From contig PKUH01000016.1 of assembly GCA_002869615.1 (NCBI GenBank), positions 1-52,428 on the forward strand: DNA of 52,428 bases, read 5' to 3'. Below the pieces are notes generated by a model, which was not told where the DNA came from, did no database searches, and saw only the letters and a list, made by a program, of their open reading frames with translations. The position numbers were made by a program, and so were the translations under genes. Below are positions 24,971 to 49,380 of this stretch, one piece after another; within the stretch, counting starts at the first letter, position 1; each line of letters begins with the position of its first letter. The stretch is from Desulfuromonas sp. GTDB taxonomy: Bacteria; Desulfobacterota; Desulfuromonadia; Desulfuromonadales; UBA2294.

Positions 24971-26600
24971 CTCGGCACAGCAGAGCGCTTCGTCGCTCGG
25001 TTCATTCCAGGCGGCAACAGGGGTTGACGGGTTGTCCGAACAGAACTGTCTCGAGATGTTGCGCCAGATTAAGCGGCCGCTCTATCTGGTGGCGCAGAAT
25101 GGTGCTACCAGGATCATGCCCGGGATCTGCAACCCCGCCGGGGAGACCGGGGATCGCCACAACTTCAACGGACTGGTGCCGGCCTGTTCACTTGAAGCGC
25201 TGGGGGATGCCGGTTTTTGCCGCAGCCATGATATTAAATTTCCTTACGTTGGCGGCTCTATGGCCAAGGGGATCAGTTCGGTCGCGATGGTTGCGGCGCT
25301 GGCCAAGGCCGGGATGCTCGGCTTTTTCGGTGCTGCCGGACTGGCGCTGGGCGAGGTCGAGGCGGCCATTGATCAGTTGGCGCAGCTTGCTCCGGGTCTG
25401 CCGTATGGGTTCAACCTTATTCACAGTCCGAACGAGCCGGAGCTGGAAAACGCCCTGGTTGATCTTTATCTGCGGCGCGGCATCGACCTGATTGAGGCTT
25501 CGGCGTTTCTCGACCTGACCCCGGCTCTGGTCCGTTACCGGACCCATGGGCTTTACCGCGATAGTGCCGGCCGGGTTGTTGCGCCGAACCGGGTCATTGC
25601 CAAGGTTTCGCGCGAGGAAGTTGCGGCGAAATTTTTTGCACCGCCGCGGGAGCGCTTTTTGCGTGAGTTGGTTGCTTCAGGGCAGCTGACCGAAGAACAG
25701 GCGCGGTTGGCCGCCGAGATTCCAATGGCTCGGGATGTCACTGTCGAAGCTGATTCGGGCGTGCATACTGACAACCGGCCTGCCCTGGCGCTCTTCCCGA
25801 CGATCCAGGCGCAGAAGAGTACTGCTCAGAAGGAATATGGTTACAGGACGCCTCTGCGGGTTGGCCTCGGTGGCGGTATCGCGACACCGGCCGCGGCGGC
25901 CGCCGCTTTTGCCCTGGGTGCAGCCTACCTGGTGACCGGAACGGTTAACCAGGCGTGTATCGAATCCGGCACCTGTGATGAGGTTCGCCAGATGCTGGCC
26001 GAGACCCGGCAGGCGGATGTCACCATGGCACCTTCCGGCGATATGTTCGAGATGGGTGTCAATGTACAGGTGATCAAGCGCGGCACCATGTTTTCAATGC
26101 GCGCGGCGAAGCTTTATGAACTCTACCGGGCGCATAGCAGCCTCGACGATCTGCCTGTTACGGAACGGCAGAAGCTCGAGAAGACGATTTTTCGCAAAGA
26201 GCTCAACCAGGTCTGGGCAGAAACACGCAGCTATTTTGCCGAGCGCGACCCGCGCCAGTTGGCGAAGGCGGAAGCCGATCCGAAATACAAGATGGCGCTG
26301 GTGTTTCGCTGGTATCTCGGCCAGTCGCCGGTCTGGGCCAATAAGGGCATGACCGACCGCAAGCTTGATTACCAGGTCTGGTGTGGTCCGGCGATGGGAG
26401 CTTTTAACGAGTGGAGCAAGGGGACGTTTCTCGAGGCAACCGGTCAGCGCAAGGTTGCCACCGTAGCAATGAATATCTTGTTTGGTGCGGCCGTGTTAAT
26501 TCGTGCCAGCCAACTTAAACTGCAAGGGGTTGGCCTCGAAGACGAGGCGGCTTTGACCACCCCCCTTGAGATTGAACAGATCAAGGAGTTTCTCAGTTGA
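24963..26600 (+). CDS. pfaD: PUFA synthase enoyl-reductase subunit PfaD
   Basis: A flavin-dependent enoyl reductase of 545 aa, the trans-acting ER of the polyunsaturated fatty acid synthase. The FMN/TIM-barrel region of the 2-nitropropane dioxygenase family is visible: MLGFFGAAGLALGEVEAAID, LPYGFNLIHSPNEPELE, RTPLRVGLGGGIATPAAAAA and YLVTGTVNQACIESGTCDEV. It starts at TTG 24963, supported by GGAGGAG about nine bases upstream. The start lies inside the ispH stop region. It ends in a 4-base overlap with pfaA. Confidence 0.93.
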   Translation: MNNSAQQSASSLGSFQAATGVDGLSEQNCLEMLRQIKRPLYLVAQNGATRIMPGICNPAGETGDRHNFNGLVPACSLEALGDAGFCRSHDIKFPYVGGSMAKGISSVAMVAALAKAGMLGFFGAAGLALGEVEAAIDQLAQLAPGLPYGFNLIHSPNEPELENALVDLYLRRGIDLIEASAFLDLTPALVRYRTHGLYRDSAGRVVAPNRVIAKVSREEVAAKFFAPPRERFLRELVASGQLTEEQARLAAEIPMARDVTVEADSGVHTDNRPALALFPTIQAQKSTAQKEYGYRTPLRVGLGGGIATPAAAAAAFALGAAYLVTGTVNQACIESGTCDEVRQMLAETRQADVTMAPSGDMFEMGVNVQVIKRGTMFSMRAAKLYELYRAHSSLDDLPVTERQKLEKTIFRKELNQVWAETRSYFAERDPRQLAKAEADPKYKMALVFRWYLGQSPVWANKGMTDRKLDYQVWCGPAMGAFNEWSKGTFLEATGQRKVATVAMNILFGAAVLIRASQLKLQGVGLEDEAALTTPLEIEQIKEFLS

Positions 26601-29600
26601 AGAACAACAACTTGGAACAAAAAGCCGTAGCAATGAAGCCACTGGCGATAGTCGGAATTGGCAGTATCTTCCCCATGGCTAATGATACGGGAACGTTCTG
26701 GAGCAACATCAAGCAGGGTGTCGATGCGATCACCGAGGTTCCGGAGACCCATTGGCGTTCTGACGATTATTTTGACGCCGACCCAAAATCGCCGGACAAG
26801 GTGTATGCCAAGTGCGGCGGCTTCCTCTCGCCGGTCGATTTCAACCCGATGGAATACGGGGTGTTGCCCAATGCGCTCGAGGCGATCGACACCTCGCAGC
26901 TGCTTGGCCTGGTTGCCGTGGAACAAGCGCTGCAGGATGCCGGCTACGCGACCGGCAAGGAATTTGATCGCGACAAGGTCAGTGTCATTCTCGGAATTAC
27001 CGGTACCCTCGAGCTGGTGGTGCCGCTCGGCGCCCGACTCGGTCATCCCCGCTGGCGTGAGGCGCTCAAGGATGCCGGTATCGCCGATGCGATCGCTGAA
27101 GACGTCATGCAGCGCATCAGCGATTCTTACGTTCCCTGGCAGGAAAACTCCTTCCCCGGGCTACTGGGTAACGTGGTCGCCGGCCGGATCAGCAAGCACT
27201 TTGATTTCGGTGGGACCAACTGTGTTGTTGACGCCGCTTGTGGCAGTTCGCTGAGCGCGTTGAATCTGGCGGCGCTCGAACTCGCGGCCGGTAAGGCCGA
27301 CATGGTTGTCTCGGGCGGGATCGATACCTTTAACGATATCTTTATGTACACCTGCTTCAGCAAGACGCCGGCTTTGTCACCGTCCGGCCATTCGCGGCCC
27401 TTTGCTGCTGATGGTGATGGCACGACGCTTGGCGAAGGCCTGGGGATCGTCGTTATCAAGCGCCTGGAAGATGCTGAACGCGATGGCGACAAGATCTACG
27501 CCGTGATCAAAGGTCTCGGCGCCTCGAGTGACGGGCGTGGTGCCGCAATCTACGAGCCGAGCGCCGCCGGTCAGCAAAAAGCTTTACGCCGTGCTTATGA
27601 ACAGGGTGGCATTGATCCGAAGACTGTCGAATTGATTGAGGCGCACGGTACGGGCACCAAGGTCGGTGACGCGGTTGAAGTTTCGGCACTGAAAGAGGTC
27701 TTTGGCGAAGCGGCAGAGCCGTGGTGCGCGATCGGCTCTATCAAGTCACAGATCGGCCACACCAAGGCTGCGGCCGGTTCGGCAGGTTTGATCAAGGCTG
27801 CGATGGCGCTCTACAACAAAACATTGCCGCCGACAATCAAGGTCAAAAAACCGCAGGACACGGTGACTGCAAGTGGTTCGCCTTTCTACGTCAATACAGA
27901 GCTTCGTCCCTGGATTCCACGCGGCGATCATCCGCGCCGGGCAGGGGTCAGTGCACTCGGTTTCGGCGGCAGCAACTTCCACTGCCTGCTCGAGGAATAC
28001 CAGTCTGCCAAGGCGACGGTTGATTGGCAGGGCGATGTCCAGCTGGCACCATTCAGCGCCGCTGATATCGCGGGGCTGGAGTCAGCTCTGCAGGCGTTTC
28101 CGGCGGATGGTTCATGGAAAGATATCCGCCTGGCCGCTGCGGAGGCCCGTGCTGTTTTTAATGCCCGGGCCGCCTGTCGTCTCGCCCTGGTCTTTGACCG
28201 GTCAAGTGACAAGAGTGCAGCTCAGGTGCAGACAGCCTTGAGTATGCTGCGCAGCAAAGGTGAAGAGTCTTTCTGGAGTACCCCCGACGGGACCTTTTTT
28301 GCCCGTGGTGAGAATGCGGGTAAACTGGCGATGCTCTTTCCCGGGCAGGGCGCACAGTATACCGGGATGCTCAAGGATCTGGCGGTCCACTTCCCACAGT
28401 TCCTCGAATCATTTCGGGCCTCTGACCAGGCCTTTATTGCCAACACCGGCGGTGAGCAAGGGCGCCTGACGGAACTGGTTTACCCGCGGCCGGTTTTTGA
28501 TCAACAGGCCCACGACGAAAACGAGATGAAGCTGCGTGCTACCGAGGTGGCGCAACCGGCGCTTGGCGCTGTCAGCCTCGGGGCGCGTGATGTGCTTGCC
28601 GCATTCGGCATCAGGGGTGAAGCTTTTGCCGGGCATAGCTATGGCGAACTGACCGCACTTTGCTCCGGCGGCTTCTTCGATACGAGTGCCCTCAGTGCAT
28701 TATCACGCCTGCGCGGAGAGTTGATGGCTTCCGGTGAAGGCGACCTCGGTTCGATGCTGGCGGTTTCCGCACCGCTCAACCAGGTTGAAAGCTTTCTCGA
28801 GGAATCCGGGTTGCAACTGGTTCTGGCGAATCGCAATACGCCTGAGCAGGGCGTCCTTTCCGGTGCGACCGACGAAATTGAAAAAGCGGCAAAGCTGCTT
28901 GATGAACAGGGTCTGCGTTACAAGCAGCTGTCTGTTGCAGCGGCGTTCCACAGTGAACTGGTCGCTGCTGCCAGCGGCCCCTTCGGCGAGCGGCTGAAAC
29001 AGATAGATTTCAAGCAGCCGACAGCCGATGTTTACGCCAATACCACCGGTGCTGCTTATCCGGTCTCTGCCGCTGAAGCGCGGGAACTGCTGGCGACTCA
29101 GCTTGCCAGCCCTGTCGATTTTGTGGCCGAGATTGAGGCGATGTATGCTGCCGGTATGCGGACCTTTGTCGAGGTTGGTCCCGGCGCCCGCCTGGCCGGC
29201 ATGGTCAAGGCGATTCTCGGTGAGCGTGAGCATCAGGCGATTGCCATCGACGCATCTAACGGCAAGCGTTCCGGAATCAATGATCTGGCGCGCGCCCTGG
29301 CACAGCTGACCGCTCTCGGTTACCCGGTTGATTTGTCTCTCTGGGATGAAGGGTATGCCGAAGCCTGTAAAGCAACCCCGAGCAAAAAAGGGATGACCGT
29401 TCAGTTGACTGGCGCCAACTATTTCCAACGACCGGCAAAGCGGCCACCAGTGCCACAACAGCCGGCAGCAGCCGCGCCGACTCCACCGCCGCAGAATGGT
29501 TCTCAATCAGCTCCTTCGACCGCTCCGGTGGCTGCCGGTGCCGGCTCTTTACAGGAGGCATTGCAGATTACCCGGCAGAGCATGCAGGCGCTACAGGGAT

Positions 29601-32600
29601 TGCAGGAACAGACGGCACGTTTGCATCAGCAGTTTCTGGCCGGACAGGAATCGACCACCAGGACTTTCCTCAATCTGGTTGAACAGCAGAATCGATTATT
29701 GCAGGGCCAGCCGGTTGCGGCTGTCGCTGCCCCGGTTGCGGCTCCTGCTGCGGCTTCGCCTCCGGTAGAGCCTGCGCCAGTTGCCACTCCGCCGGTTGCC
29801 CCGGCCGCGGCCGTTTCCGCGGATGCTGTCGCCCGACCGGAAGCCCCGGCCATAGACAGTGGCCAGGTTTCTTCAACCCTGCTTGCCGTTATTGCCGAGA
29901 AGACCGGCTACCCGGAAGAGATGCTTGAGCTCGAGATGTCCCTTGACACCGATCTCGGGATCGATTCGATCAAGCGGGTAGAGATTCTTTCTGCATTACA
30001 GGAACAGCTTCCGGAAGCTCCGGCGGTGAAGCCGGAAGACCTCGGCACCTTGCAGACTCTTGGTCAGATCATCGACCACCTGAGCGCCGGTATGGTCCCG
30101 GCAGCAGACCCCGCCGCGATTCCTGCTGCTGCTTCCGCACCTGCGGTTGATGCCGGCCGCATTACAAATGTGTTACTGGAAGTCATCGCTGAAAAGACCG
30201 GTTATCCGCAAGAGATGCTCGAGATGGAGATGGCGCTTGATACCGATCTCGGAATCGATTCGATCAAGCGTGTGGAAATCCTCTCGGCCTTGCAGGGACA
30301 GCTGCCGGAGGCACCGGCGGTAAAGCCGGAGGACCTCGGCGTGCTGCAGACCCTTGGCCAGATCGTCGAACATTTAAGCGCCGGTATTGCCGTTGGCGCG
30401 CCTGCGGTGCAACCCGAAACTGCTGCGGGCCCGACTGTCGATAGCGACCGTGTTGCTGCAGTGCTGCTGGAAGTCATCGCCGAAAAGACCGGTTATCCGC
30501 AAGAGATGCTCGAGATGGAGATGGCGCTTGATACCGATCTCGGAATCGATTCGATCAAGCGCGTTGAAATCCTCTCGGCCTTGCAGGGACAGCTGCCGGA
30601 GGCACCGGCGGTAAAGCCGGAGGACCTCGGTGTGCTGCAGACCCTTGGCCAGATCGTTGACCACCTCGCAGTTGTCGGTAGTACGGATCCTCCGCCGGTT
30701 GTTGCTACGCCGCAGGCAGCGCCTGCTGACCGCGATCTTGTCGCGGCGACCCTGTTGACTGTGATCGCTGACAAGACCGGCTATCCGCAAGAGATGCTTG
30801 AACTGGAGATGGCACTTGACACCGACCTCGGCATCGATTCGATCAAGCGTGTGGAAATCCTTTCTGCATTGCAGGAAAAGTTGCCCGGCGCACCGGCGAT
30901 CAAGCCGGAGCATCTTGGTACGCTCCAGACAGTCGGCCAGATTGTCGATTTTCTGGCGAGTGTTTCCGGCGTCGCCCAGCCGGCCGCAAAGGTTGAAGCC
31001 CCCTTTGAGCTTCCTTCCGTAGGCAGTGGTGTCGAGCGTAAGGTGCTGAAAGCCGTTCCGTTGCCGGCCGGTGGCGAGCGCATGGCTCTCAAACTGCCGC
31101 AAGGGTCGAAGGTGTGGGTCACTGACGATGGCTCGACCCTGGTTGACGCGCTTTGTGCCGAGCTCGATTCCAGGCAGCTGGTCGCTGAAAAAGTCGCGGT
31201 TGCTGCTTCGGCTGAGTTGACTGCTCCGGCTGATCTGGCGGGGGTCATTGTTGTTGCCCCGCACACCGGAGCCGATGATGCTTTTGTGCGGAACGCGTTT
31301 ACCCTGATTCAGAAATCGGGTGATGTGCTTAATGCCAATGCTGCTAAAGGTGGAGCTTTTCTGACCACCGTATCCCGGCTCAACGGTCAGTTTGGCCTGG
31401 CGTCTGCAGGCCCTGTTGCCGATGCTCTTTCCGGGGGGCTGGCCGGTATCAGCAAGACCGCCAGTCATGAGTGGGCGGAAGTCTCCTGCCGGGCCTTTGA
31501 CCTGGCCGAAGACCTTCCGGACGATGCACAAATCGCTGAAATGCTGGTTGCCGAAATGCTGCTTGACGGCGCGCCGGAAACAGGTCTCAGCAAAGACGGT
31601 CTGTTCACGCTCAAACTGGTCGAGGAAGTTCTTTCCGGGGAGACGATCGATGCTCCCGTCAGTTACGGTGACGTGGTCGCGATCAGCGGTGGTGCCCGTG
31701 GCGTCACGGCAGAGGTTGCCGTCTCCCTGGCGGCCGCCAGTCGTGCCACCCTGTTGCTGCTCGGTCGTAGTGAAGCGCCCCAGGCTGAACCGGCCTGGCT
31801 CGAGGGATTGAACAGCGAAGCCGAGATCAAGAAGGCCGTGATCGCCAATTCAGAGGAGCCGCTCAAGCCGAAGGATGTCGGGCGTAAATGCCAGGAGATT
31901 CTCGGCAACCGCGAGATCCGCAATACCCTGCATCGCATCAAGACCGCTGGCGGTCAGGCAATTTACCGTTCGGTCGATTTGCGTGACAGTGCTGCCGTTG
32001 CCGCGGTTGTTAATGATGTTCGTGCGGAGTATGGTCCGATCAGGGGGTTGATCCATGGTGCCGGAGTTCTGGCTGATCGTTTGATCAAGGACAAGACCGC
32101 CGAACAGTTTGAGCAGGTTTACTCGACCAAGGTTGATGGCCTGAGAAGTTTGCTTAATGCGATTGCCGAAGATGACCTTAAATTCATGGTGATGTTCTCT
32201 TCCTCAACTGGCCGCTATGGACGGACCGGGCAGGTCGATTATGCCGTAGCCAACGAGATTCTTAACAAGACGGCTCAACAGGAAGCCGCGGCGCGTCCAA
32301 GTTGTCGGGTTCTGTCCCTGAACTGGGGCCCGTGGGATGGTGGTATGGTGACACCGGAGCTGAAGAAAATCTTTGCTGCGGAAGGGGTGGCGGTAATCGA
32401 CCTCAAGGCCGGTGCCGACTATCTGGTCGAGGAGATTGCGACGCCACCCGGTGGCCCGGTCGAACTGGTGATCCTGGGCGGACGCGAAGAGGCCGCAACC
32501 GAAAGGCCGGCGACCGAGAATATCTATATCTCCAGAGCCTTTGATCTCGACGTTTCGATTGAGCAATACCCGTTTTTGGCCTCACACGTTATTGACGGCA

Positions 32601-33391
32601 AAGCGGTTCTGCCGATGGCGGTTATGATCGAATGGATGGCGCATGCGGCAATTCATAATAACCCGGGATTGCTTTTCCATGGTTTTAATGACCTGCGTGT
32701 GCTCAAGGGAGTGACCCTTGAGCAGGGGGAGGTGCACTCGCTGCAGGTGATGACCGGCAAAGCGATCAAGAGTGCCGGAGTACACGTGGTGCCGGTCGAG
32801 TTGTCGGGTGTTGCAGCGAATGGACAGCAGTTCGTTCATTCCCGGGCCCGGATTGTCCTGGCGGCAAAACTGCCGGAAGGCAAGCGGGCTATGGAACGGG
32901 TTGAGCTCCAGCAATACAGCCGTCCGATTGAAGAGATATACAACCCGGATCGACTCTTCCATGGTCCGGATTTTCACGGTATCCGCGAAGTGATCGGTTG
33001 CTCCGGCGAAGGTATTGCGACGATGGTAAAACCGGCGCCAAAACCTGATGAGTGGATCAAGCAGCCGCTGCGGAACTCGTGGCTCTCGGATCCCCTGGCC
33101 CTGGACAGCAGCTTTCAGATGATGATCCTCTGGAGCTTCGAACGCTACAATTCGGCTTCGCTGCCGGTTTTCGCCGGGCGCTATCGCCAGTACCGGGATA
33201 ACTTCCCCGGCACGGGCGTGGAGATCCGGGTTCAGGTAACCAGCCAGAGCGACAGTAAGGCGGCCGCCGATATTGATTTCGTAGATCCCGACAGCGGGGT
33301 ACTGGTTGCGCGAATCGAAGGTTACGAATGTGTTATTGATGCTTCGCTGAATGCGAGCTTCCAGCGGAACAAGCTGCAGGGAGCTGCCTGA
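26597..33391 (+). CDS. pfaA: PUFA synthase subunit PfaA (KS-MAT-ACPx4-KR-DH-like)
   Basis: An iterative polyketide-type synthase of 2,264 aa that elongates acyl chains from malonyl units. The ketosynthase spans about residues 14-460 with Cys215 (DAACGSSL), His350 (EAHGTGT) and His388. The malonyl transferase is about 570-870 with Ser681 in GHSYGE. Four ACP domains carry phosphopantetheine Ser at 1124, 1222, 1319 and 1415, each in DLGIDSIKRVE. The ketoreductase begins near 1690 (ISGGARGVTAEV) with VDYAVAN as active site. The C-terminal 280 residues form a hot-dog, product-template-like domain (HVIDGKAVLPMAVM). It starts at TTG overlapping the pfaD stop, with AAGGAG upstream. Confidence 0.95.
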   Translation: MKNNNLEQKAVAMKPLAIVGIGSIFPMANDTGTFWSNIKQGVDAITEVPETHWRSDDYFDADPKSPDKVYAKCGGFLSPVDFNPMEYGVLPNALEAIDTSQLLGLVAVEQALQDAGYATGKEFDRDKVSVILGITGTLELVVPLGARLGHPRWREALKDAGIADAIAEDVMQRISDSYVPWQENSFPGLLGNVVAGRISKHFDFGGTNCVVDAACGSSLSALNLAALELAAGKADMVVSGGIDTFNDIFMYTCFSKTPALSPSGHSRPFAADGDGTTLGEGLGIVVIKRLEDAERDGDKIYAVIKGLGASSDGRGAAIYEPSAAGQQKALRRAYEQGGIDPKTVELIEAHGTGTKVGDAVEVSALKEVFGEAAEPWCAIGSIKSQIGHTKAAAGSAGLIKAAMALYNKTLPPTIKVKKPQDTVTASGSPFYVNTELRPWIPRGDHPRRAGVSALGFGGSNFHCLLEEYQSAKATVDWQGDVQLAPFSAADIAGLESALQAFPADGSWKDIRLAAAEARAVFNARAACRLALVFDRSSDKSAAQVQTALSMLRSKGEESFWSTPDGTFFARGENAGKLAMLFPGQGAQYTGMLKDLAVHFPQFLESFRASDQAFIANTGGEQGRLTELVYPRPVFDQQAHDENEMKLRATEVAQPALGAVSLGARDVLAAFGIRGEAFAGHSYGELTALCSGGFFDTSALSALSRLRGELMASGEGDLGSMLAVSAPLNQVESFLEESGLQLVLANRNTPEQGVLSGATDEIEKAAKLLDEQGLRYKQLSVAAAFHSELVAAASGPFGERLKQIDFKQPTADVYANTTGAAYPVSAAEARELLATQLASPVDFVAEIEAMYAAGMRTFVEVGPGARLAGMVKAILGEREHQAIAIDASNGKRSGINDLARALAQLTALGYPVDLSLWDEGYAEACKATPSKKGMTVQLTGANYFQRPAKRPPVPQQPAAAAPTPPPQNGSQSAPSTAPVAAGAGSLQEALQITRQSMQALQGLQEQTARLHQQFLAGQESTTRTFLNLVEQQNRLLQGQPVAAVAAPVAAPAAASPPVEPAPVATPPVAPAAAVSADAVARPEAPAIDSGQVSSTLLAVIAEKTGYPEEMLELEMSLDTDLGIDSIKRVEILSALQEQLPEAPAVKPEDLGTLQTLGQIIDHLSAGMVPAADPAAIPAAASAPAVDAGRITNVLLEVIAEKTGYPQEMLEMEMALDTDLGIDSIKRVEILSALQGQLPEAPAVKPEDLGVLQTLGQIVEHLSAGIAVGAPAVQPETAAGPTVDSDRVAAVLLEVIAEKTGYPQEMLEMEMALDTDLGIDSIKRVEILSALQGQLPEAPAVKPEDLGVLQTLGQIVDHLAVVGSTDPPPVVATPQAAPADRDLVAATLLTVIADKTGYPQEMLELEMALDTDLGIDSIKRVEILSALQEKLPGAPAIKPEHLGTLQTVGQIVDFLASVSGVAQPAAKVEAPFELPSVGSGVERKVLKAVPLPAGGERMALKLPQGSKVWVTDDGSTLVDALCAELDSRQLVAEKVAVAASAELTAPADLAGVIVVAPHTGADDAFVRNAFTLIQKSGDVLNANAAKGGAFLTTVSRLNGQFGLASAGPVADALSGGLAGISKTASHEWAEVSCRAFDLAEDLPDDAQIAEMLVAEMLLDGAPETGLSKDGLFTLKLVEEVLSGETIDAPVSYGDVVAISGGARGVTAEVAVSLAAASRATLLLLGRSEAPQAEPAWLEGLNSEAEIKKAVIANSEEPLKPKDVGRKCQEILGNREIRNTLHRIKTAGGQAIYRSVDLRDSAAVAAVVNDVRAEYGPIRGLIHGAGVLADRLIKDKTAEQFEQVYSTKVDGLRSLLNAIAEDDLKFMVMFSSSTGRYGRTGQVDYAVANEILNKTAQQEAAARPSCRVLSLNWGPWDGGMVTPELKKIFAAEGVAVIDLKAGADYLVEEIATPPGGPVELVILGGREEAATERPATENIYISRAFDLDVSIEQYPFLASHVIDGKAVLPMAVMIEWMAHAAIHNNPGLLFHGFNDLRVLKGVTLEQGEVHSLQVMTGKAIKSAGVHVVPVELSGVAANGQQFVHSRARIVLAAKLPEGKRAMERVELQQYSRPIEEIYNPDRLFHGPDFHGIREVIGCSGEGIATMVKPAPKPDEWIKQPLRNSWLSDPLALDSSFQMMILWSFERYNSASLPVFAGRYRQYRDNFPGTGVEIRVQVTSQSDSKAAADIDFVDPDSGVLVARIEGYECVIDASLNASFQRNKLQGAA
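29897..30915 (+). repeat. pfaA: Four tandem ACP-coding repeats in pfaA
   Basis: Equivalent points of the four ACP repeats lie at 29897, 30191, 30482 and 30770, giving periods of 294, 291 and 288 bases. Repeats 2 and 3 are nearly identical at the DNA level over almost 200 bases (30178-30373 against 30468-30663), down to silent positions, while 1 and 4 are more diverged. This indicates recent duplication or gene conversion. Confidence 0.9.
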
Positions 33392-33393
33392 GG

Positions 33394-35277
33394 ATGAAAC
33401 ACGGACAATCGGTTGCAATCGTCGGGGTCGGCGGCATTTTCCCAATGTCACCGACCCTGGACCGTTTCTGGGAAACAATCGTCGGGAATGTTGACACCTC
33501 GCGTCAGCCGCCGAAAGGGCGCTGGCTGCTCGATGTTGAAGATGCCTACGATGCCAGGGTCGGCGTCCCGGACAAGGTTTATTCGAAAAAAGCCTGCTTC
33601 CTTGACGACGAAACCGAGACAAGGTCAATCCCCGGACTCGATATCGATGCCGATTTCCTCACCAAGCTTGACCCGATGTTTCGCCTGTTACTGCGTGCCG
33701 GACATCAGGCTTTCAGTGATGGTCGGATTGATCAGCTGAATCGCGAGCGGGTCGGTGTGATTATTGGCAACCTGGCCTTGCCAAGTGAACTCTCCTCGAC
33801 CATGGCCCGTGATTACCTCGGGCATGCTTTCGCAGAAAAATTGCTTGGCCCCGAGCAGGTCCCGGAACTCCCTTCAGTTGATCCCCTGAATCGCTATGTT
33901 GCCGGATTGCCCGCCGGAATCCTTGCCAAAGCGCTCAGCCTGGGCGGGACCTGCTATACGCTTGATGCCGCTTGCGCCTCATCGCTTTACGCGATAAAGC
34001 TGGCGGTTGATGAACTCGTTTCCGGACGAGCCGATGCGATGCTGACCGGCGGCCTGGCTCGCCCCGATTCGCTTTATACCCAGATGGGTTTTTCTCAGCT
34101 GCATGCGCTCTCTCCGACGGGCACCTGTTCTCCTTTTGATGCCAATGGCAACGGCCTGGTGGTCGGTGAGGGCAGCGGCATGTTTCTCCTCAAGCGGACC
34201 GAGGATGCCGTGCACGCCGGTGATCACATCTATGGGGTGATCCGCGGTATCGGCCTCTCCAATGATCTTGGCGGCAGCCTGCTGGCCCCTGCTTCCGAAG
34301 GACAGCTGAGGGCGATGCGCTCTGCTTACCAGCAGGCCGGATGGTCGCCCTCTGATATCGATATGATCGAATGCCATGCGACCGGTACTCCGGTCGGAGA
34401 CGTGGTCGAATTTTCCAGCCTGAGGACTCTTTGGGGTGATGACGGCTGGCAGCCCGGTCAGTGTGTGATCGGTTCGGTCAAATCAAACATTGGCCACCTG
34501 CTAACCGCAGCCGGTTCGGCAGCCCTGATGAAAACCTTGCTGGCGCTCAAGGAACGAACCTTGCCGCCGACCGCTAATTTTTCCAACCCGGCAAAGGGGG
34601 TTGACCTCGATTCCAGCCCTTTCCGTGTACTGCAAGAGGCGAAACCCTGGAAAGCGCGCAAACAGGGGCAGCCACGCCGTGCGGCGATCAGCGCCTTTGG
34701 CTTCGGCGGTATCAACGCGCACCTGTTGATCGAGGAGTGGATTCCGAAGAAGCCCGTCAAGAGTTCGGTCACATATCTGCCAACCTCGAAGAAGAAGGCG
34801 ACTCCGATTGCGATCGTTGGTATGGGGGCGCATTTTGGCCATTGGGGATCTCTGGACGAGTTGCGCAGTCGACTTTTGGGCGGAGGGCCCGATGTCGACC
34901 CGCAGCCACCGAAACACTGGTGGGGAGTGGAACAGAGTCGCTGGTTCCGGGAAAACGGTCTGCATCAGGATTCTTTCAAGGGGTTCTTTGTTTCTGAAGT
35001 TGCGGTTGCTCCGGGCGCTTTCCGGATTCCACCCAGGGAGGTGGAAGAGATGTTGCCGCGGCAGCTGTTGATGCTCAAAGTCGCTGCTGAAGCGCTAAAA
35101 GACGCCGGGCTTGAAAAAGATGACCTGCTCTTTACCGGCGTCTTTATCGGGACCGGTCTGGATCTGAATGCAACCAACTTCAGCTTCCGGTGGGGAATCG
35201 AAAAATATGCCCGAGCGTGGGCGCAGCAGTTGGGCCGGGAGCTCTCTGACCATGAGCTGCAGCAGTGGATTGCCTAA
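33394..35277 (+). CDS. pfaC: PUFA synthase subunit PfaC, N-terminal part (KS and first third of CLF)
   Basis: The first 627 codons of a pfaC gene cut by an in-frame TAA. The ketosynthase spans about residues 4-455, with Cys194 in DAACASSL, the His of IECHATGTPVGD and the His of SNIGHLLTAAG all intact. A second KS-like domain, the chain-length factor, begins at about residue 470 (TPIAIVGMGAHFGHWG) and is severed at residue 627 after LQQWIA. ATG 33394 follows the pfaA stop by two bases. The frame continues without shift in 35278-40386; read through, the protein would be 2,330 aa. Alone this part would be a KS with a truncated, probably unstable, CLF. Confidence 0.85.
   Translation: MKHGQSVAIVGVGGIFPMSPTLDRFWETIVGNVDTSRQPPKGRWLLDVEDAYDARVGVPDKVYSKKACFLDDETETRSIPGLDIDADFLTKLDPMFRLLLRAGHQAFSDGRIDQLNRERVGVIIGNLALPSELSSTMARDYLGHAFAEKLLGPEQVPELPSVDPLNRYVAGLPAGILAKALSLGGTCYTLDAACASSLYAIKLAVDELVSGRADAMLTGGLARPDSLYTQMGFSQLHALSPTGTCSPFDANGNGLVVGEGSGMFLLKRTEDAVHAGDHIYGVIRGIGLSNDLGGSLLAPASEGQLRAMRSAYQQAGWSPSDIDMIECHATGTPVGDVVEFSSLRTLWGDDGWQPGQCVIGSVKSNIGHLLTAAGSAALMKTLLALKERTLPPTANFSNPAKGVDLDSSPFRVLQEAKPWKARKQGQPRRAAISAFGFGGINAHLLIEEWIPKKPVKSSVTYLPTSKKKATPIAIVGMGAHFGHWGSLDELRSRLLGGGPDVDPQPPKHWWGVEQSRWFRENGLHQDSFKGFFVSEVAVAPGAFRIPPREVEEMLPRQLLMLKVAAEALKDAGLEKDDLLFTGVFIGTGLDLNATNFSFRWGIEKYARAWAQQLGRELSDHELQQWIA
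35275..35277 (+). other. pfaC: In-frame TAA stop inside pfaC
   Basis: The codons run CAG TGG ATT GCC TAA TTG CGA GAA TCA in one frame. The reading frame, composition and domain homology continue on both sides, so this is one gene with a single nonsense codon. A one-base change from TCA or TTA, among others, would create it. No ribosome-binding site lies before the following TTG, and TAA is the least leaky stop. Confidence 0.9.
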
Positions 35278-38200
35278 TTGCGAGAATCAGCTGGCCCGGC
35301 CTTAAGCGCCAACCGGGTGATGGGGGCCCTTGGCAGCATTGTTGCCAGTCGCATCGCCAAGGAGTTCCGCGTTGGCGGCCCGAGCTTTACCCTCTCCAGT
35401 GAAGAGAATTCCGGTCTACGCGCCCTCGAAGTCGGGGTCCGCGAATTACAGGAAGGTTCAATCAACCGCGCTATTGTTGGTGCTGCCGATATGGCCGGTG
35501 ATTTACGATCTGTGCTCGGCCGTCACGCTTCCCATCCGTTCTCTGCCAAGGGGGCAGCTTCACCTTTCGATCAGAATGCCGATGGTGCTCTGGTCGGTGA
35601 AGGCGCCGCGGCGGTTATCCTGAAGCGCCTCGATGATGCCCGGCAGGATGGTGATCACATCTATGCCGTGATCAAGGGCCTCGGGACCTCAACCGGTGGC
35701 CCGGTCGAAGAGAGCCATACCGATAGCGACACTTACACGCGCTCTGTTGAGAGAGCCAGCCATGAGGCGGGGGCCTCTCCCGAAACCGTCAGCTACCTGG
35801 CAGCCAATGGTAGTGGTTTGCCCGATGAAGATGAGTTGGAGGCGAAGGCGCTCAGTACGTTTTTCGGTAACCAGAAAGCCGAGAACCCTTGCTATATCGG
35901 AAGTGCCATAGCCGATATCGGGCACGCCGGTGCCGCCGCCGGACTTGCCTCTCTGGTTAAGGCTGCGACCTGCCTCGATCAGCAGATCCTTCCGCCGCTG
36001 CGCAACCTCGAATCACTGCGTTTCGATTGGGTACGTGGCATGCGCAGCTTTATCGCTCCTGACTCGGCCCGCTACTGGTTGCGCAACCGGGCTGAGGGTC
36101 GGCGGCGGGCGCTGGTAAGCGGTGTCGGCGCAGACGGCACCTGCTCACATGCCATTCTCGAAGGAGTTGACGCCAAGGCTGCCCCGGGTCATTTTGTCGA
36201 TCGTCCACTGGGAGCCATGGATGAAGGGCTGTTCGCACTGGATGGTGATAATGCGAACGACCTCGTGACACGGATTTCTCAATTGCGGGATTTTGTCGCC
36301 ATGGCTCCTGATGGCGATATTGAGCAGTTTGCCGCCCAATGGTTTCTTGATGCAAAGCTGAACAGCCAGCATAAGCTCTGTGTTGCCATGGTTGCGTCGA
36401 GTCGTGCAGAACTGCTGGCGCAACTGGAGCATGCCGAGCAGTCATTGAGCCGCGACCCGGAACAAGCGCTTGGCTATCATGGCAGCTCTCTTTCAACGGC
36501 CATTCGTGATCGGCTCTTCTACTCCCCCGATCCTCTGGCCCGTCAAGGCAAGGTGGCCTTTATCTTTCCCGGCTCCGGCAACCATTTTGCGGGGATGGGT
36601 GCTGAACTGTCTGCCCGCTGGCCGGCTATCTACAACGCTCAGGACGCCGACAGTAAATTTTTAGCCCGGCAGTATTTGCCCGGACACTTCTGGAAACCGG
36701 AGTTGGCAGAGGCTCTACACGAGAACCATAATGCCCTGGTTATTGCCCAGGTGGCTCTCGGTACCGCGGTGAGTGACCTGGTCCGCAGCTTCGGTGTTGA
36801 GCCCGACGTGGTCAGTGGCTACAGCCTAGGTGAGTCGGCGGGTCTGTTCTCGCTCAAGGCCTGGCGAGATCGCGACGGCATGGCGCAGAGGTTGGCAGAA
36901 TCAACGCTCTTTACCGAGGATCTGGCGGGTGAATGCAAGGCTGCGCGCAAGGTCTGGGGATTAAAGAAAAATGAACAGGTTGACTGGATCCTCGGTCTCG
37001 TCGGGGCGCCGGCCGCGCAGGTCAAGAAAGCTCTCAAAGGCAAGGATAAAGCCTACCTGCTGATCATTAACACCCACAATGAGTGCGTGATCGGTGGTGA
37101 TCGCAGCCAGGTTGAAGCCCTGGCCAGTGAAGTCGATGGGCATTTCTTCCCGCTGCGCGGCGTCACGACAGTTCACTGCGAGGTTGCCGAACCGGTCAGG
37201 AAGGCCTACCGTGATCTGCACCTTTTCCCGGTGACCGCTCCCGAAGGGATCTCCTTCTACAGCTGTCACCGTGGTGAACGCTACGCGGTGACGACTGACA
37301 GTGCCGCTGACGTCATCCTCGGCCAGGCTCTGCAGACGGTCGACTATACCAGGGTTGTTGAACAGGCTTATGCTGATGGCGTCCGCATCTTCCTCGAGAT
37401 GGCACCGGGCAACTCCTGCAGCAGAATGATCAGCAGTATCCTGGACGGCCAGCCGCATATGTCCAGGGCGGCCTGTTATCCCGGGCAGAAACCGACTTCG
37501 TTGCTTCTGCGTCTGCTGGCAAACTGTCTTGCGGAACGTGTGCCGCTGGATCTCTCTGTGCTTTATCCGGAGAGTATCGTGGCGCCGGAAAAGAGTGCAG
37601 GTTCGCGCATTGCAACGGTGATCGGGGGCGAGGCTTTTTCCCCGGCGCCACTACCGCCGGAAATTGCGACGGCAAGCGCTGTTGACGAACAGCCGACAGA
37701 CGGGCCGCAAGACACGGAACACCTCAATCAGGAGCCAGGGGCCAGTCCCCGGCCAGTCCCCGGCCAGCCCAGGGATCTCAGTCAGGATCCGCTGGTGGCG
37801 CAAATGGCTGAGACGGCGGAGATGCAGGCCCGGGCGCATGAGGGCTACCTGCAGTTTGCCAGCACCATGGAGAAGACGCTGACCGAGAACATCAATCTGC
37901 AGATGTCGATTCTGCAGAAGATGGCCGCGAACGGAGAGAGAATAGAGGCTGGAGACTGGGAACCGGGGTATGGAGATACTTCCTCGCCTCATTCGCAGAT
38001 GGTGGTGAACCAACCCCCGGCTTCCAGCCCCCAGCCCCCGGTATTAGATCGTGACATGTGCATGGAGTTCGCCATCGGCTCGATCGCCAAGGTCCTCGGG
38101 CCTGAGTTCGCCGAGGTTGACACTTATCCGACCCGGGTACGCCTGCCGTATGAACCGTTGATGCTGGTTGACCGGATTATGACGATCGAAGGCGAGCCGC

Positions 38201-40386
38201 GCTCCATGACAGGCGGCCGCGTCGTCACCGAGCATGATGTCACGGCAGATCGCTGGTACCTCGATGGTGGCCGGATCCCGACCTGTATCGCCGTCGAAGC
38301 GGGGCAGGCTGACCTCTTCCTTTCCGGTTACCTGGGCATTGACTTTGTCGGCAAAGGAAAAGCGGTTTATCGGCTGCTCGACGCCGTGGTCACCTTTCAT
38401 CGTGGCCTGCCGGTGCCCGGCGATGTGATTCGTTACGATATCAGGATTGATCATTTCTTCCGCCAGGATCAGACCTATCTGTTCCGCTTTAATTTTGAAG
38501 GCACGGTCAACGGAGAGCCTTTGCTGTCGATGCAGAATGGCTGTGCCGGTTTCTTTACCGAACAGGAACTGGCGGCCGGGCAGGGGATCGTCCATACCAG
38601 GCTCGACCTGCTGCCGCAACCGGGTATCAAGCCGGACGACTGGCGAGACCTGGTGCCGTTAAAGGTCGAATCGTACGATGCGGCAGAGGTGAATGCGATC
38701 TACGCCGGCGACCTCGGCCGGGCCTTCGGTGCGCCCTTTGAAAACCTTGCCTTGACCAAACCCTATACCCTGCCCGGTGGCTACCTGAAGTTGGTTGACC
38801 GGGTCATCGAACTTGATCCGCAGGGCGGACGCTATGGCCTCGGCCAGATTCGCGCCGAGATGGACATCCGTCCGGACGACTGGTTTCTGACCTGTCATTT
38901 CTGCGACGATAATGTCATGCCCGGCACCCTGATGTACGAGTGCTGCATGCACACCCTGCGCATCTACCTGCTGCGCATGGGCTGGATCGGGGAGGATGGC
39001 AGCACCTGGTGCGAGCCGGTGCCCGGTGTTGACAGCGGCCTGAAATGTCGCGGCCAGGTGGTCGAGACGACCAGGACCGTCACATACCAGGTCAGTATCA
39101 AGGAGCTTGGTTACGGCCCGGAACCGTTTGCCATTGGTGACGCCCTGATGTTTGCCGACGGCAAGCCGATCGTCGAGATCCCGAATATGTCGATCCGCCT
39201 GGCCGGGTTGAATCGTGCCAAGGTCGAAAGTTTGTGGGGACAGTCTCAGTCCGGTTCCCGGCCCCCGGCCCCCGCTCCGCGGGTTCTCTATGATTACGAC
39301 AAGATCCTGGCGTTCTCGGCGGGTAACCCCTCGGAAGCATTTGGTGAGCCGTACCGGATCTTTGACCAGCAGCGCAAGATCGCCCGTCTGCCGCGCCCGC
39401 CGTTCCAGTTTCTCGACCGCATCGTCGGCGTCACCGGTGAACCGTTCAAGTTGGTCGAAGGAGCGACCTGCGTCGCCGAGTACGATGTGCCGGAAGATGC
39501 CTGGTACTTCGCGGCCGGGCGCCAACCGCAGATGCCGTTCAGCGTTCTGCTCGAGACCGGGCTGCAGCCGTGCGGCTGGCTGGCGGCCTATCTCGGGTCG
39601 GCCCTGACCAGCGAGACCGACCTCAAATTCCGCAACATCGATGGCGATGCCGTGCAGCACCGGGCGGTTACGCCGGAGTCAGGTCTGTTGACGACCCGGG
39701 TCAAGATCACCCGCATTGCCAGCAGCGGCGGCATGATTATCCAGAATTACGATTTTGAAATCAGTGATCAAATCGGGCCGGTCTATACCGGCACGACCGT
39801 GTTCGGCTTTTTCTCGGGCGAGTCGCTTGCACAGCAGGTTGGCGTGCGTGAAGCGCAGCTGTACACCCCGACCGCGGAAGAGCTCGCCCGTTCCGAGTCC
39901 TTTGCCTATCCGGCTACGGCCCCTTACCCCGAAAAGCAGCTGCGCATGCTCGACCGGATTGAGCTGTTTGTTGCCGATGGCGGGCCGGAACGGCTTGGCC
40001 TGATTCGCGGCAGCAAGAGGGTCGATCCTGAAGAGTGGTTCTTTAAGGCCCACTTCTATCAGGACCCGGTCTGCCCCGGGTCCCTCGGGCTCGAATCTTT
40101 GCTGCAGCTGCTCAAGGTTGCGGCGATGAAACGATGGGGCGGGCGTGAGCAAAGTCTGTTTGAGACCATGGTTCTCGGCGCCCGGCACAGCTGGAACTAC
40201 CGCGGCCAGATTATCCCGAGCAACGATCAGGTTGTGGTCGATGCGGTGATTACGGCGGTCGATGACGATCAGCAAATACTGAAGGCAAACGGCTTCCTCT
40301 CGGTTGATGGCAAGGTCATCTATCAGATGACCGACTTTACGATCAAGTTGCGCGAAACGTCGGCCAGTCAGCAAGGACTTGCCTGA
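35278..40386 (+). CDS. pfaC: PUFA synthase subunit PfaC, C-terminal part (rest of CLF, AT, paired FabA-like DH)
   Basis: The continuation of pfaC after the internal stop, 1,702 codons. It opens with the rest of the chain-length factor, whose active-site Cys is replaced (FTLSSEENSG), as expected for a CLF. An acyltransferase follows (FIFPGSGNHFAGMG; Ser1144 of the joined protein in GYSLGES); it replaces a separate PfaB. A linker with repeats leads to four hot-dog modules forming two FabA-like dehydratase/isomerase pairs. The catalytic-type His residues are at 1835 (TCHFCDDNVMPG) and 2220 (KAHFYQDPVCPG) in joined numbering. The position 35278 is a nominal TTG; independent translation from it is doubtful. 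Confidence 0.85.
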   Translation: MRESAGPALSANRVMGALGSIVASRIAKEFRVGGPSFTLSSEENSGLRALEVGVRELQEGSINRAIVGAADMAGDLRSVLGRHASHPFSAKGAASPFDQNADGALVGEGAAAVILKRLDDARQDGDHIYAVIKGLGTSTGGPVEESHTDSDTYTRSVERASHEAGASPETVSYLAANGSGLPDEDELEAKALSTFFGNQKAENPCYIGSAIADIGHAGAAAGLASLVKAATCLDQQILPPLRNLESLRFDWVRGMRSFIAPDSARYWLRNRAEGRRRALVSGVGADGTCSHAILEGVDAKAAPGHFVDRPLGAMDEGLFALDGDNANDLVTRISQLRDFVAMAPDGDIEQFAAQWFLDAKLNSQHKLCVAMVASSRAELLAQLEHAEQSLSRDPEQALGYHGSSLSTAIRDRLFYSPDPLARQGKVAFIFPGSGNHFAGMGAELSARWPAIYNAQDADSKFLARQYLPGHFWKPELAEALHENHNALVIAQVALGTAVSDLVRSFGVEPDVVSGYSLGESAGLFSLKAWRDRDGMAQRLAESTLFTEDLAGECKAARKVWGLKKNEQVDWILGLVGAPAAQVKKALKGKDKAYLLIINTHNECVIGGDRSQVEALASEVDGHFFPLRGVTTVHCEVAEPVRKAYRDLHLFPVTAPEGISFYSCHRGERYAVTTDSAADVILGQALQTVDYTRVVEQAYADGVRIFLEMAPGNSCSRMISSILDGQPHMSRAACYPGQKPTSLLLRLLANCLAERVPLDLSVLYPESIVAPEKSAGSRIATVIGGEAFSPAPLPPEIATASAVDEQPTDGPQDTEHLNQEPGASPRPVPGQPRDLSQDPLVAQMAETAEMQARAHEGYLQFASTMEKTLTENINLQMSILQKMAANGERIEAGDWEPGYGDTSSPHSQMVVNQPPASSPQPPVLDRDMCMEFAIGSIAKVLGPEFAEVDTYPTRVRLPYEPLMLVDRIMTIEGEPRSMTGGRVVTEHDVTADRWYLDGGRIPTCIAVEAGQADLFLSGYLGIDFVGKGKAVYRLLDAVVTFHRGLPVPGDVIRYDIRIDHFFRQDQTYLFRFNFEGTVNGEPLLSMQNGCAGFFTEQELAAGQGIVHTRLDLLPQPGIKPDDWRDLVPLKVESYDAAEVNAIYAGDLGRAFGAPFENLALTKPYTLPGGYLKLVDRVIELDPQGGRYGLGQIRAEMDIRPDDWFLTCHFCDDNVMPGTLMYECCMHTLRIYLLRMGWIGEDGSTWCEPVPGVDSGLKCRGQVVETTRTVTYQVSIKELGYGPEPFAIGDALMFADGKPIVEIPNMSIRLAGLNRAKVESLWGQSQSGSRPPAPAPRVLYDYDKILAFSAGNPSEAFGEPYRIFDQQRKIARLPRPPFQFLDRIVGVTGEPFKLVEGATCVAEYDVPEDAWYFAAGRQPQMPFSVLLETGLQPCGWLAAYLGSALTSETDLKFRNIDGDAVQHRAVTPESGLLTTRVKITRIASSGGMIIQNYDFEISDQIGPVYTGTTVFGFFSGESLAQQVGVREAQLYTPTAEELARSESFAYPATAPYPEKQLRMLDRIELFVADGGPERLGLIRGSKRVDPEEWFFKAHFYQDPVCPGSLGLESLLQLLKVAAMKRWGGREQSLFETMVLGARHSWNYRGQIIPSNDQVVVDAVITAVDDDQQILKANGFLSVDGKVIYQMTDFTIKLRETSASQQGLA
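37741..38042 (+). repeat. pfaC: Low-complexity repeat insertions in the pfaC AT-DH linker
   Basis: At 37741-37770 an 11-base unit, GCCAGTCCCCG, is repeated twice plus a partial third copy. At 37949-37976 and 38011-38041 there are GGCTGGAGACTGGGAACCGG- and CCGGCTTCCAGCCCCCAGCC-type strings that are partly inverted copies of each other. A related Pro-rich string lies at 39249-39276 in the linker between dehydratases. They are in frame and code for Pro/Ser/Gly-rich linker. Confidence 0.6.
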
Positions 40387-40456: not shown

Positions 40457-41500
40457 ATGAAGTACTCACGTGTCTATGTTGAATCGGTCGGTTATGAACT
40501 GGCACCGATTGTCGTAACCTCGACCGAGCTCGAAAACCGGTTGAAGCCGATGTATGAGACCTTGCATATTTCGCTCGGTCAGCTTGAAGCCTTGACCGGC
40601 ATTCGCGAGCGGCGCTGGTGGCAGCCTAACGCTCTGATCTCGGAAGGGGCGATTGACGCCGCCAAAAAGGCGTTGCGTGAGCGCAATATTGCCCCGGAGG
40701 ATATCGGGGCCGTTGTTTATGCCGGCGTCTGTCGTGAGCATTTCGAGCCGGCGACCGCCTGTCAGGTGGCGGCAGCGCTGGGGGTGCGGGGCGACGCCGC
40801 CATCTACGATACGTCCAATGCCTGCCTCGGAGTCCTCAACGGAGTCCTCGATATCGCCAATCGCATTGAGTTGGGCCAGATTCGGGCCGGCCTGGTCGTT
40901 GCCTGCGAGAGCTCCCGGGAGATCAACGAGATCATGATTCAGCAGATGCTCGATACCCCGACCATGGAGAACTTCACCAAATCGCTGGCGACATTGACCG
41001 GCGGCTCCGGCGCGGCGGCAGTCCTGCTTACCGACGGGTCTTTTACTCCGGCCCGGCGACCACGCCTGCTCGGCGGGGTCAACCTGGCCGAGCCGCAGCA
41101 CCACGCCCTCTGCCGCTGGGGGGTCTCGTCCGACGATCCGGAAAATCATGTTCCCTATATGCAGACCGATGCGGTCGCCGTGATGAAGCATGGGGTGGAA
41201 CTCGGGAAAAAGACCTGGGACGCTTTTCTCAAGGAACTCGATCTCAGCACGGAGCGGGTTGACAAGGTGATCTGTCACCAGGTCGGTGAGGCGCACCAGG
41301 CCCTGATTCTGCAGGCCATCGGGATCAGCCCGGAAAAGGATTTTTCGACCTACGGCTATCTCGGCAATATGGGCACGGTCTCCCTGCCGGTGACCGCGGC
41401 CATTGCCAAGGAGCGTGACAACCTGTTGCCGGGCGATATCGTCGGTTTCCTCGGCATCGGCAGTGGTCTGAATTGTCTGATGTTGGGTATCCAGTGGTAA
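40457..41500 (+). CDS. oleA: OleA, head-to-head acyl-CoA/ACP condensing thiolase
   Basis: A FabH/thiolase-fold enzyme of 347 aa that performs non-decarboxylative Claisen condensation of two fatty acyl thioesters to a 2-alkyl-3-ketoacid. The nucleophile Cys123 lies in DTSNACLGVLNG, the His in KVICHQVGEAH and the Asn in YGYLGNMGTVS. The HFEPATAC segment holds the Glu typical of OleA rather than FabH. The length matches OleA. Its stop overlaps the oleB ATG by one base. Identification is reinforced by the oleB, oleC and oleD order. Confidence 0.93.
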   Translation: MKYSRVYVESVGYELAPIVVTSTELENRLKPMYETLHISLGQLEALTGIRERRWWQPNALISEGAIDAAKKALRERNIAPEDIGAVVYAGVCREHFEPATACQVAAALGVRGDAAIYDTSNACLGVLNGVLDIANRIELGQIRAGLVVACESSREINEIMIQQMLDTPTMENFTKSLATLTGGSGAAAVLLTDGSFTPARRPRLLGGVNLAEPQHHALCRWGVSSDDPENHVPYMQTDAVAVMKHGVELGKKTWDAFLKELDLSTERVDKVICHQVGEAHQALILQAIGISPEKDFSTYGYLGNMGTVSLPVTAAIAKERDNLLPGDIVGFLGIGSGLNCLMLGIQW

Positions 41501-42390
41501 TGAGTAGACCCTATCCTTTTGCCAGTCATTTTCTCGACCTGAACGGTCTGCAATACCATTATCTCGATGAGGGTCAGGGTGACCCGGTGGTGATGGTGCA
41601 TGGTAATCCGAGCTGGTCGTTCTATTACCGCAATCTGGTCGATGCCCTGCGACAGAAGTACCGCGTCATCGTACCTGACCATATCGGCTGCGGTCTGTCG
41701 CAGAAGCCGGCTGTTGCCGATTATGCCTATACCCTGGAACAGCGGATCGACGACCTTGAAGCGCTGCTTGCGCATCTCGGAGTCGACCAGAGGATTACCC
41801 TGGTGGTGCATGACTGGGGCGGGATGATCGGTATGGGTTACGCCACGCGGCACCCTGAGCAGATTGCCCGCCTGGTCATTCTCAATACCGCCGCATTCCA
41901 CCTGCCGGCCGCTAAAAAGTTTCCGCCGGCGTTGAAAATCTGTCGCGATACCGCGCTCGGCAGATTTCTGGTCCTGCGGCTGAACATGTTTGCCGTCATG
42001 GCGGCGCGGGTCGGCTGCAAGCGCAATCCGATGCCGAAAGCTTTGCGGCAAGCCTATTGTGCGCCGTACGATACGCCGGCCAATCGCATCGCCACCCTGC
42101 AGTTTGTTCGGGATATCCCCCTGGCGCCGGCCGACCCCGGTTATGCTCTGGTCAGCACTATCGGAGCGGGCCTGGAGCGGTTCGCCGCAGTGCCGATGAC
42201 GATCTGTTGGGGACTCAGGGATTTCGTGTTCGACCGGCACTTTCTCGAGGAATGGCAGCGCCGTTTTCCGCTGGCCGAAGTGCACACGTTTGCCGATTGC
42301 GGCCACTACATTCTCGAGGATGCCAAGGACGAAGTCATTCCGCTGATCGAACGGTTCCTGGAGGAACACCCATTGACCAAGAGGGCATGA
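41500..42390 (+). CDS. oleB: OleB, beta-lactone decarboxylase (alpha/beta-hydrolase)
   Basis: A 296-aa alpha/beta-hydrolase of the haloalkane dehalogenase type; in the Ole pathway it decarboxylates the beta-lactone to the cis-alkene. The nucleophile Asp105 is in VVHDWGGMIG, the oxyanion region is HGNPSWSFYY, and the catalytic His is in DCGHYILED. ATG 41500 overlaps the oleA stop (TAATG); an in-frame upstream start at 41473 lies inside oleA and is less likely. It overlaps oleC by 4 bases. Confidence 0.92.
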   Translation: MSRPYPFASHFLDLNGLQYHYLDEGQGDPVVMVHGNPSWSFYYRNLVDALRQKYRVIVPDHIGCGLSQKPAVADYAYTLEQRIDDLEALLAHLGVDQRITLVVHDWGGMIGMGYATRHPEQIARLVILNTAAFHLPAAKKFPPALKICRDTALGRFLVLRLNMFAVMAARVGCKRNPMPKALRQAYCAPYDTPANRIATLQFVRDIPLAPADPGYALVSTIGAGLERFAAVPMTICWGLRDFVFDRHFLEEWQRRFPLAEVHTFADCGHYILEDAKDEVIPLIERFLEEHPLTKRA

Positions 42391-44054
42391 TGAGCCAGTC
42401 CGTTTTTGCCAATGTTGCAGCCCATCTTCCGGAGATGGCCCGTCTCCAGCCGGACTCCCCGGCGATCCATATCCCGCAGGGTTGTGACGCGCAACAGCAA
42501 ACCGTCTACCGCCAATACAGTTTTTCCGAGCTCGACCGGGAAAGTAACCGGATGGCACAGGCGCTTGAGTCGATCGGCATCCGGCGCGGTGTGCGCACGG
42601 TTCTGATGGTGCCGCCCGGGTTCGAGTTCTTTGCTCTGACCTTCGCGCTGTTCAAGACCGGCGCCGTCCCGGTGCTGGTTGATCCGGGGATGGGGATCAA
42701 GAATCTGAAAACCTGTCTGGCCGAGGCTGAACCCGCCGCCTTTATCGGTATCCCCAAAGCGCACCTGGCCCGCTTGTTGTTCGGCTGGGGCCGGCCGACC
42801 GTCCGGATTCTGCTGACTGTCGGTCGGCGTTTTTGGGGAGGGACGACCCTGGAAAAGTTGCTGCAGACCGTTGCCCCCGACCAGCCCTATCAGACCGTTG
42901 AGACCGAAACCGATGATACGGCGGCAATCCTGTTCACCAGTGGCAGTACCGGTGTGCCGAAAGGGGCCCTGTACAGTCATGGCAATTTCTCGGCCCAGGT
43001 CGAAACCCTGCGCCGGGTTTACGATATCCGGCCGGGCGAAGTTGATTTGCCGACCTTTCCGCTTTTTGCCCTTTTTGCGCCGGCGCTCGGCATGACCTCG
43101 GTGGTTCCGGAGATGGATTTTACCCGCCCGGCCGACGTTGATCCGGTCCGGATCGTCGCCGCCATCGAGCGCTTTCAGATTACCACCATGTTCGGCTCTC
43201 CGGCTCTGATTAACCGGGTCGGCCGCCATGGTGCAGCGCAAAAGATCAAACTGCCAAGCCTGAAGCGGGCCATCTCGGCCGGGGCGCCGGTCCCGGCGCC
43301 GGTGCTGGAGCGGTTTGCCGGGATGCTGTCCGACGAGGCCGAGGTTTTTACTCCGTACGGTGCCACCGAGGCCCTGCCGGTCTGCTCGATCGGCAGCCGG
43401 GAAATCCTCGGGGAAACGCGCGCGGCGACCGATCGGGGACAGGGGGTCTGTGTCGGCCGGCCGGTTCCGGGCCTGGAGCTGGAAATCATTGCGATCACCG
43501 ATGCACCGATTGCCGAGTGGGATGCCGCCCTCAAGCTCGGCACCGGTGAGATCGGTGAGATCATCGTCAAGGGACCGCAGGTGACGCGCAGTTATTACAA
43601 CCGGGCCGAATCGACCCGTCTTGCCAAAATCGCCGACCCCGAAGATGGCGGCGTTTATCATCGAATGGGCGATCTCGGATACCGCGACGGGCAGGGCCGG
43701 ATCTGGTTTTGCGGGCGCAAGGCGCACCGGGTGGTGACCGCCGACCAGACCCTGTTTACGATTCCGTGCGAAGCGATTTTCAATACCCACCAGGCCGTCT
43801 TCCGCTCGGCTCTGGTCGGTGTCGGGCCGGCGCCGCCGCAGCGCCCGGTCCTCTGCGTCGAACTCGAGAAAGAGACCGGGGCTGTCGCCTCCGAAGAGCT
43901 GCGCCAGGAGCTGCTCCGCCTCGGCGCCGGGCAGGAACTCACCCGCTCGATCAAAACCATCCTGTTTCACCCCTCATTCCCGGTCGATATTCGACACAAT
44001 GCCAAGATCTTCCGCGAAAAGCTGGCGATCTGGGCGACGGAGCAGCTGTCATGA
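42387..44054 (+). CDS. oleC: OleC, beta-lactone synthetase (AMP-dependent ligase fold)
   Basis: A 555-aa member of the ANL superfamily that converts the 2-alkyl-3-hydroxyacid to a beta-lactone using ATP. The P-loop TSGSTGVPKG is at residues 184-193, followed by ALYSHGNF. VFTPYGATEALPV is the A5 region and YHRMGDLGYRDGQGRIWFCGR the A7-A8 hinge. ATG 42387 or 42390 both overlap the oleB stop region (GCATGATG). It overlaps oleD by 4 bases. Confidence 0.92.
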   Translation: MMSQSVFANVAAHLPEMARLQPDSPAIHIPQGCDAQQQTVYRQYSFSELDRESNRMAQALESIGIRRGVRTVLMVPPGFEFFALTFALFKTGAVPVLVDPGMGIKNLKTCLAEAEPAAFIGIPKAHLARLLFGWGRPTVRILLTVGRRFWGGTTLEKLLQTVAPDQPYQTVETETDDTAAILFTSGSTGVPKGALYSHGNFSAQVETLRRVYDIRPGEVDLPTFPLFALFAPALGMTSVVPEMDFTRPADVDPVRIVAAIERFQITTMFGSPALINRVGRHGAAQKIKLPSLKRAISAGAPVPAPVLERFAGMLSDEAEVFTPYGATEALPVCSIGSREILGETRAATDRGQGVCVGRPVPGLELEIIAITDAPIAEWDAALKLGTGEIGEIIVKGPQVTRSYYNRAESTRLAKIADPEDGGVYHRMGDLGYRDGQGRIWFCGRKAHRVVTADQTLFTIPCEAIFNTHQAVFRSALVGVGPAPPQRPVLCVELEKETGAVASEELRQELLRLGAGQELTRSIKTILFHPSFPVDIRHNAKIFREKLAIWATEQLS

Positions 44055-49212: not shown

Positions 49213-49316
49213 TTGCTTTTGATTTTTTGCTGAAAAACCTGTATTTTTAGCATGTTTTGCTTTTGCTTAGGGAGTGGTGATGTATTTGATTTGGGGGCCC
49301 TGTAAATCGTAATATT

Positions 49317-49353
49317 CCGCTGAAATCGGTCAATTCCGGTTCGGCGGTTTTTT
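49317..49353 (+). terminator. Hairpin with T-run before hsdM
   Basis: CCGCTGAA at 49317-49324 pairs with TTCGGCGG at 49340-49347 (one G-T pair), with inner CGG/CCG, followed by TTTTTT. It separates the XRE gene from the hsdM operon and suggests that hsdM has its own promoter or depends on attenuation. Confidence 0.6.
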
Positions 49354-49380
49354 ATTTTGGACTTGATTGGGTAGATAGGA

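Follow-up and report, generated by a model that had tools for sequence, protein, structure and literature searches.

The pfa-like synthase type considered here is described as consisting of pfaD, pfaA and a fused pfaBC gene (PMC3098273). A known system of this kind occurs in a relative of Desulfuromonas, with ole genes nearby. The window, that is, the whole 52,428 nucleotides analysed (contig C16 in a Desulfuromonas sp. genome of 3.08 Mb and 121 contigs, 98% complete with 0.27% contamination), shares all of these components, and the make-up of its cluster is ordinary. The only difference from the known cluster is an in-frame stop in pfaC, which is probably not real.

The pfa-ole cluster and the stop in pfaC

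All genes of the cluster are encoded on the forward strand. The enoyl reductase gene pfaD (24963..26600; TIGR02814, 627 bits) is followed by pfaA (26597..33391; KS-MAT-ACP x4-KR-DH-like by Pfam; TIGR02813, 1731 bits), and both open reading frames are intact. Downstream of pfaC lie an oleA-like gene for a ketoacyl-ACP synthase III of thiolase fold (40457..41500; NF006720, 478 bits), an oleB-like alpha/beta hydrolase (41473..42390), an oleC-like olefin beta-lactone synthetase (42405..44054, with homology beginning near 42405), an oleD-like 2-alkyl-3-oxoalkanoate reductase (44051..45049, with homology beginning near 44051) and a pfaE-like 4'-phosphopantetheinyl transferase (45056..45754). With a pfaBC fusion of order KS-CLF-AT-DH2 beside pfaA and pfaD (Pfam and NCBIfam domain order), the synthase belongs to Type I. 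A LytB/IspH-like gene (24104-24970) lies immediately upstream of pfaD and overlaps it by a few bases. Past the lipid genes, window positions 46656-50862, of lower GC content (46-50%), carry genes for a Fic-domain protein and for HsdM, the methylase of a type I restriction system; this stretch adjoins a tRNA-Ser and is possibly a mobile region.

The TAA at 35275-35277 is in the same frame as the ATG at 33394 and as the stop ending at 40386, and is the sole lesion in the 2,330 codons of pfaC. It divides the product into 627 aa, the stop and 1,702 aa. Pfam assigns to the read-through protein two ketoacyl-synthase pairs, for KS and CLF, together with an acyltransferase and stretches of FabA-like dehydratase; it is the second of the ketoacyl-synthase domains, CLF, that the stop interrupts. 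The upstream part (33394..35277) therefore encodes KS and the first part of CLF; the downstream part (35278..40386, 1,702 codons) encodes the remaining CLF, the AT and the FabA-like DH. The original prediction, a single frame of 2,330 positions with pfaBC-type order KS-CLF-AT-DH-DH, is thus borne out by the open reading frames and by Pfam. It had also held the other pfa and ole genes to be intact, in agreement with the frames of pfaA and pfaD; no second broken gene was flagged among the window genes covered by the homology survey described below.

The comparison with relatives that had been proposed as a check gives a clear result: the codon at the site of the TAA is a sense codon in all orthologues examined (about 30, from Desulfuromonadales, at 38-78% identity). 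The residue itself is variable, with Ala the commonest and Ser, Glu, Asp, Thr, Gly and Gln also found, and the motif directly after it, LRxSxGPxLxANRVMGALGS, is near-invariant. The sense codons in these orthologues imply that there is no natural boundary at this site, as had been argued from the position of the break in the middle of a domain.

Lone stops across the assembly

Two independent surveys covered 1.07 Mb of this assembly, roughly one third of its genome, along with as much as 1.55 Mb from the relative G031. For the homology survey, genes of relatives were aligned to this genome (228 regions, 69,034 codons), yielding six convincing single in-frame stops: the TAA of pfaC, a TAG in an NtrC-like regulator, a TAA in homoserine dehydrogenase, a TAG in GAPDH, a TAA in a glycosyltransferase and a TAG in a ferredoxin-like protein. 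The reverse comparison in G031 (60,896 codons) returned no convincing in-frame stop, and the survey detected frameshifts in neither genome. The hexamer survey, applied to about 1.07 Mb of each genome, returned 66 candidates here versus 25 in G031. By eye, 14 of the 66 are internal to genes; they comprise RpoB, PurH, CdsA, HemD, EttA, CheB, two DctM proteins, two TPR proteins and a hybrid response regulator, together with the GAPDH, NtrC-like and homoserine dehydrogenase stops already recovered by homology. The 25 candidates of G031 proved on reading to be gene boundaries, except for one probable Sec codon. An initial codon-usage scan was dropped, as antisense frames made it noisy, and the hexamer and homology surveys were used instead.

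In total, 17 otherwise intact genes on ten contigs of the 1.07 Mb sample carry one in-frame stop (14 from the hexamer survey and three found by homology only), and TAA, TAG and TGA all occur. A single Pfam family spans the stop in the read-through products of CdsA, HemD and both DctM proteins; for CheB and the two TPR proteins Pfam domains match on one or both sides of the stop only, and these three are less certain. A supposed TAG inside FabD was rejected, being the terminal stop of FabD itself. TGA codons at four loci (L125, L127, L129 and L187) look like genuine selenocysteine codons and were excluded from the count. They stand in contexts typical of selenocysteine, among them DFQ*PYC in a DsbA-like protein (L125) and RGGW*PYC in a peroxiredoxin-like protein (L129); judging from these motifs, the species probably makes selenoproteins.

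The stops are not confined to dispensable genes, as they would be if only an accessory pathway were decaying: cdsA, hemD, purH, homoserine dehydrogenase and the single-copy rpoB are hit alike. The rpoB gene (G000:C67:7551-11621; loci L258 and L151) is the only copy in the genome and has one in-frame TAA mid-gene, at a site that is Glu (GAA or GAG) in five relatives, including the same-genus genome G001 (95% identical). The beta subunit of RNA polymerase is needed for the life of any cell. Since a cell without it would not be viable, the alternatives are erroneous bases or read-through of the stops.

Direction of change and competing readings

Seven of the stop sites allow the ancestral residue to be read. 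Four are Glu (EttA GAG, rpoB GAA, PurH GAG, homoserine dehydrogenase GAG/GAA), two are Ser (GAPDH TCG, and CdsA) and one is Gly (HemD). In each case only one single-base change leads to the stop observed, and that change is a G:C>T:A transversion at all seven sites. Given the codon usage and equal rates, this class makes up 0.41 of nonsense opportunities, so that seven of seven has p of about 0.002. In pfaC, hypothetical ancestors GAA (Glu) or TCA (Ser), both seen in relatives, would require the same class of change. Tests for accompanying missense changes were less informative. Relative to G031, radical differences of the G>T/C>A kind number 20 and those in the reverse direction 16, an underpowered comparison that is weakly positive at best; in PfaC just two residues out of 1,434 columns are private, a test with little power for missense errors; and the private-residue test at the rpoB, GAPDH, homoserine dehydrogenase and EttA loci is confounded by antisense frames and too weak to detect them.

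Three readings other than sequence error were considered. That the synthase is naturally made as two polypeptides, by termination and reinitiation at the TAA-TTG junction, has the adjoining TTG (35278) in its favor, but we give it almost no credence. None of the orthologues examined is split at this site, the break falls within CLF instead of at a domain boundary, and none of the candidate starts adjoining the stop makes a convincing restart: TTG 35278 (-3.1 kcal/mol), GTG 35317 (+1.1) and ATG 35320 (-1.1) are predicted to pair weakly with the anti-SD of the 16S tail, compared with -5.6 to -9.3 kcal/mol for the pfaC, pfaA, pfaD, oleA and PPTase gene starts. Farther downstream in frame, ATG 35491 (-5.1) and GTG 35512 (-6.0) pair better, and both are deep within CLF. 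The downstream half thus lacks a strong restart signal beside the stop, in line with the original prediction that it has no ribosome-binding site. A very recent genuine nonsense mutation in pfaC, with the other stops being a separate matter, is unlikely, though less so than the split. The translated protein would then comprise KS and only a portion of CLF, and the strain would no longer make its PUFA/hydrocarbon product. Recent loss fits a single lesion in an otherwise conserved sequence, pfaC is an accessory gene of a patchily distributed cluster (PMC3098273), and G001 (87% complete) gave no pfaC match. However, the assembly's own background of false-looking stops already predicts about 0.2 such stops in a gene of this size, and the same type of lesion is present in rpoB.

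Suppression or reassignment throughout the genome, with some UAA and UAG (and UGA) codons decoded as amino acids and RpoB, PfaC and the other proteins made at full length, would account for the stops in indispensable genes; we nevertheless consider it very improbable. The Glu at four of the seven polarised sites recalls Blastocrithidia and related trypanosomatids, in which UAR encodes Glu in conserved genes and UAA has a dual role (PMC12153298). Here, unlike in those codes, Ser and Gly are replaced as well and UGA is involved. Three stop codons standing for three residues correspond neither to a reassigned codon nor to a single suppressor tRNA. Moreover, no tRNA with a UUA or CUA anticodon is present among the tRNAs typed in this 98% complete assembly, from which some tRNAs are missing; RF1 and RF2 were both found, without internal stops; and G001 has sense codons at all five sites that align there. 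Broad suppression, by which a bacterium would tolerate and read through UAA, UAG and UGA even in indispensable genes such as rpoB, appears more doubtful still.

A base error in the consensus is very probably the correct explanation: the TAA of pfaC would be just one among numerous single-base substitution errors in a metagenome-style assembly, and pfaC probably runs uninterrupted in the organism. The rate of lone stops (6 of 69,034, or 8.7e-5 per codon) corresponds to the roughly 0.2 stops expected in 2,330 codons; pfaC is among the genome's longest genes, and a hit there is therefore unsurprising. The substitutions would arise somewhere on the way from the living cell to the deposited consensus, and their simplest reading is that a process of one class altered either the DNA being sequenced or the consensus itself; the pfaC codon would originally have been a sense codon that a single change turns into TAA. 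We infer that the errors are technical in origin. One fitting chemistry would be oxidation of guanines in the DNA that was sequenced, which a low effective number of templates would then have fixed in the consensus. G>T changes are a known artefact when guanine in DNA is oxidised outside the cell (PMC12390751, PMC8748355), and are of the same G:C>T:A class as all seven polarised sites; they are usually low-frequency read errors, whereas here they would be consensus bases in long contigs, so the chemistry itself is an interpretation. Two counterpoints should be noted. Contigs of up to 190 kb suggest reasonable coverage, in which case random read errors should stay out of the consensus, and the same error process should yield many missense errors.

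Consequences for the organism and its genome

Of the three options originally offered, base-call error is by far the likeliest, given the similar lone stops in rpoB, cdsA, hemD and purH, which equally speak against a loss or recoding specific to pfaC. The further suggestion that the strain has probably lost its PUFA/hydrocarbon product does not follow, since similar lone stops occur across the assembly. Base accuracy is invisible to the usual completeness and contamination figures, and for any metagenome assembly counting the stops within indispensable genes offers an inexpensive check on it. We note that pfaC is not special in this respect: the sequence does contain the stop, the organism probably does not, and lone in-frame stops of this genome should not be taken as pseudogenes or as recoding.
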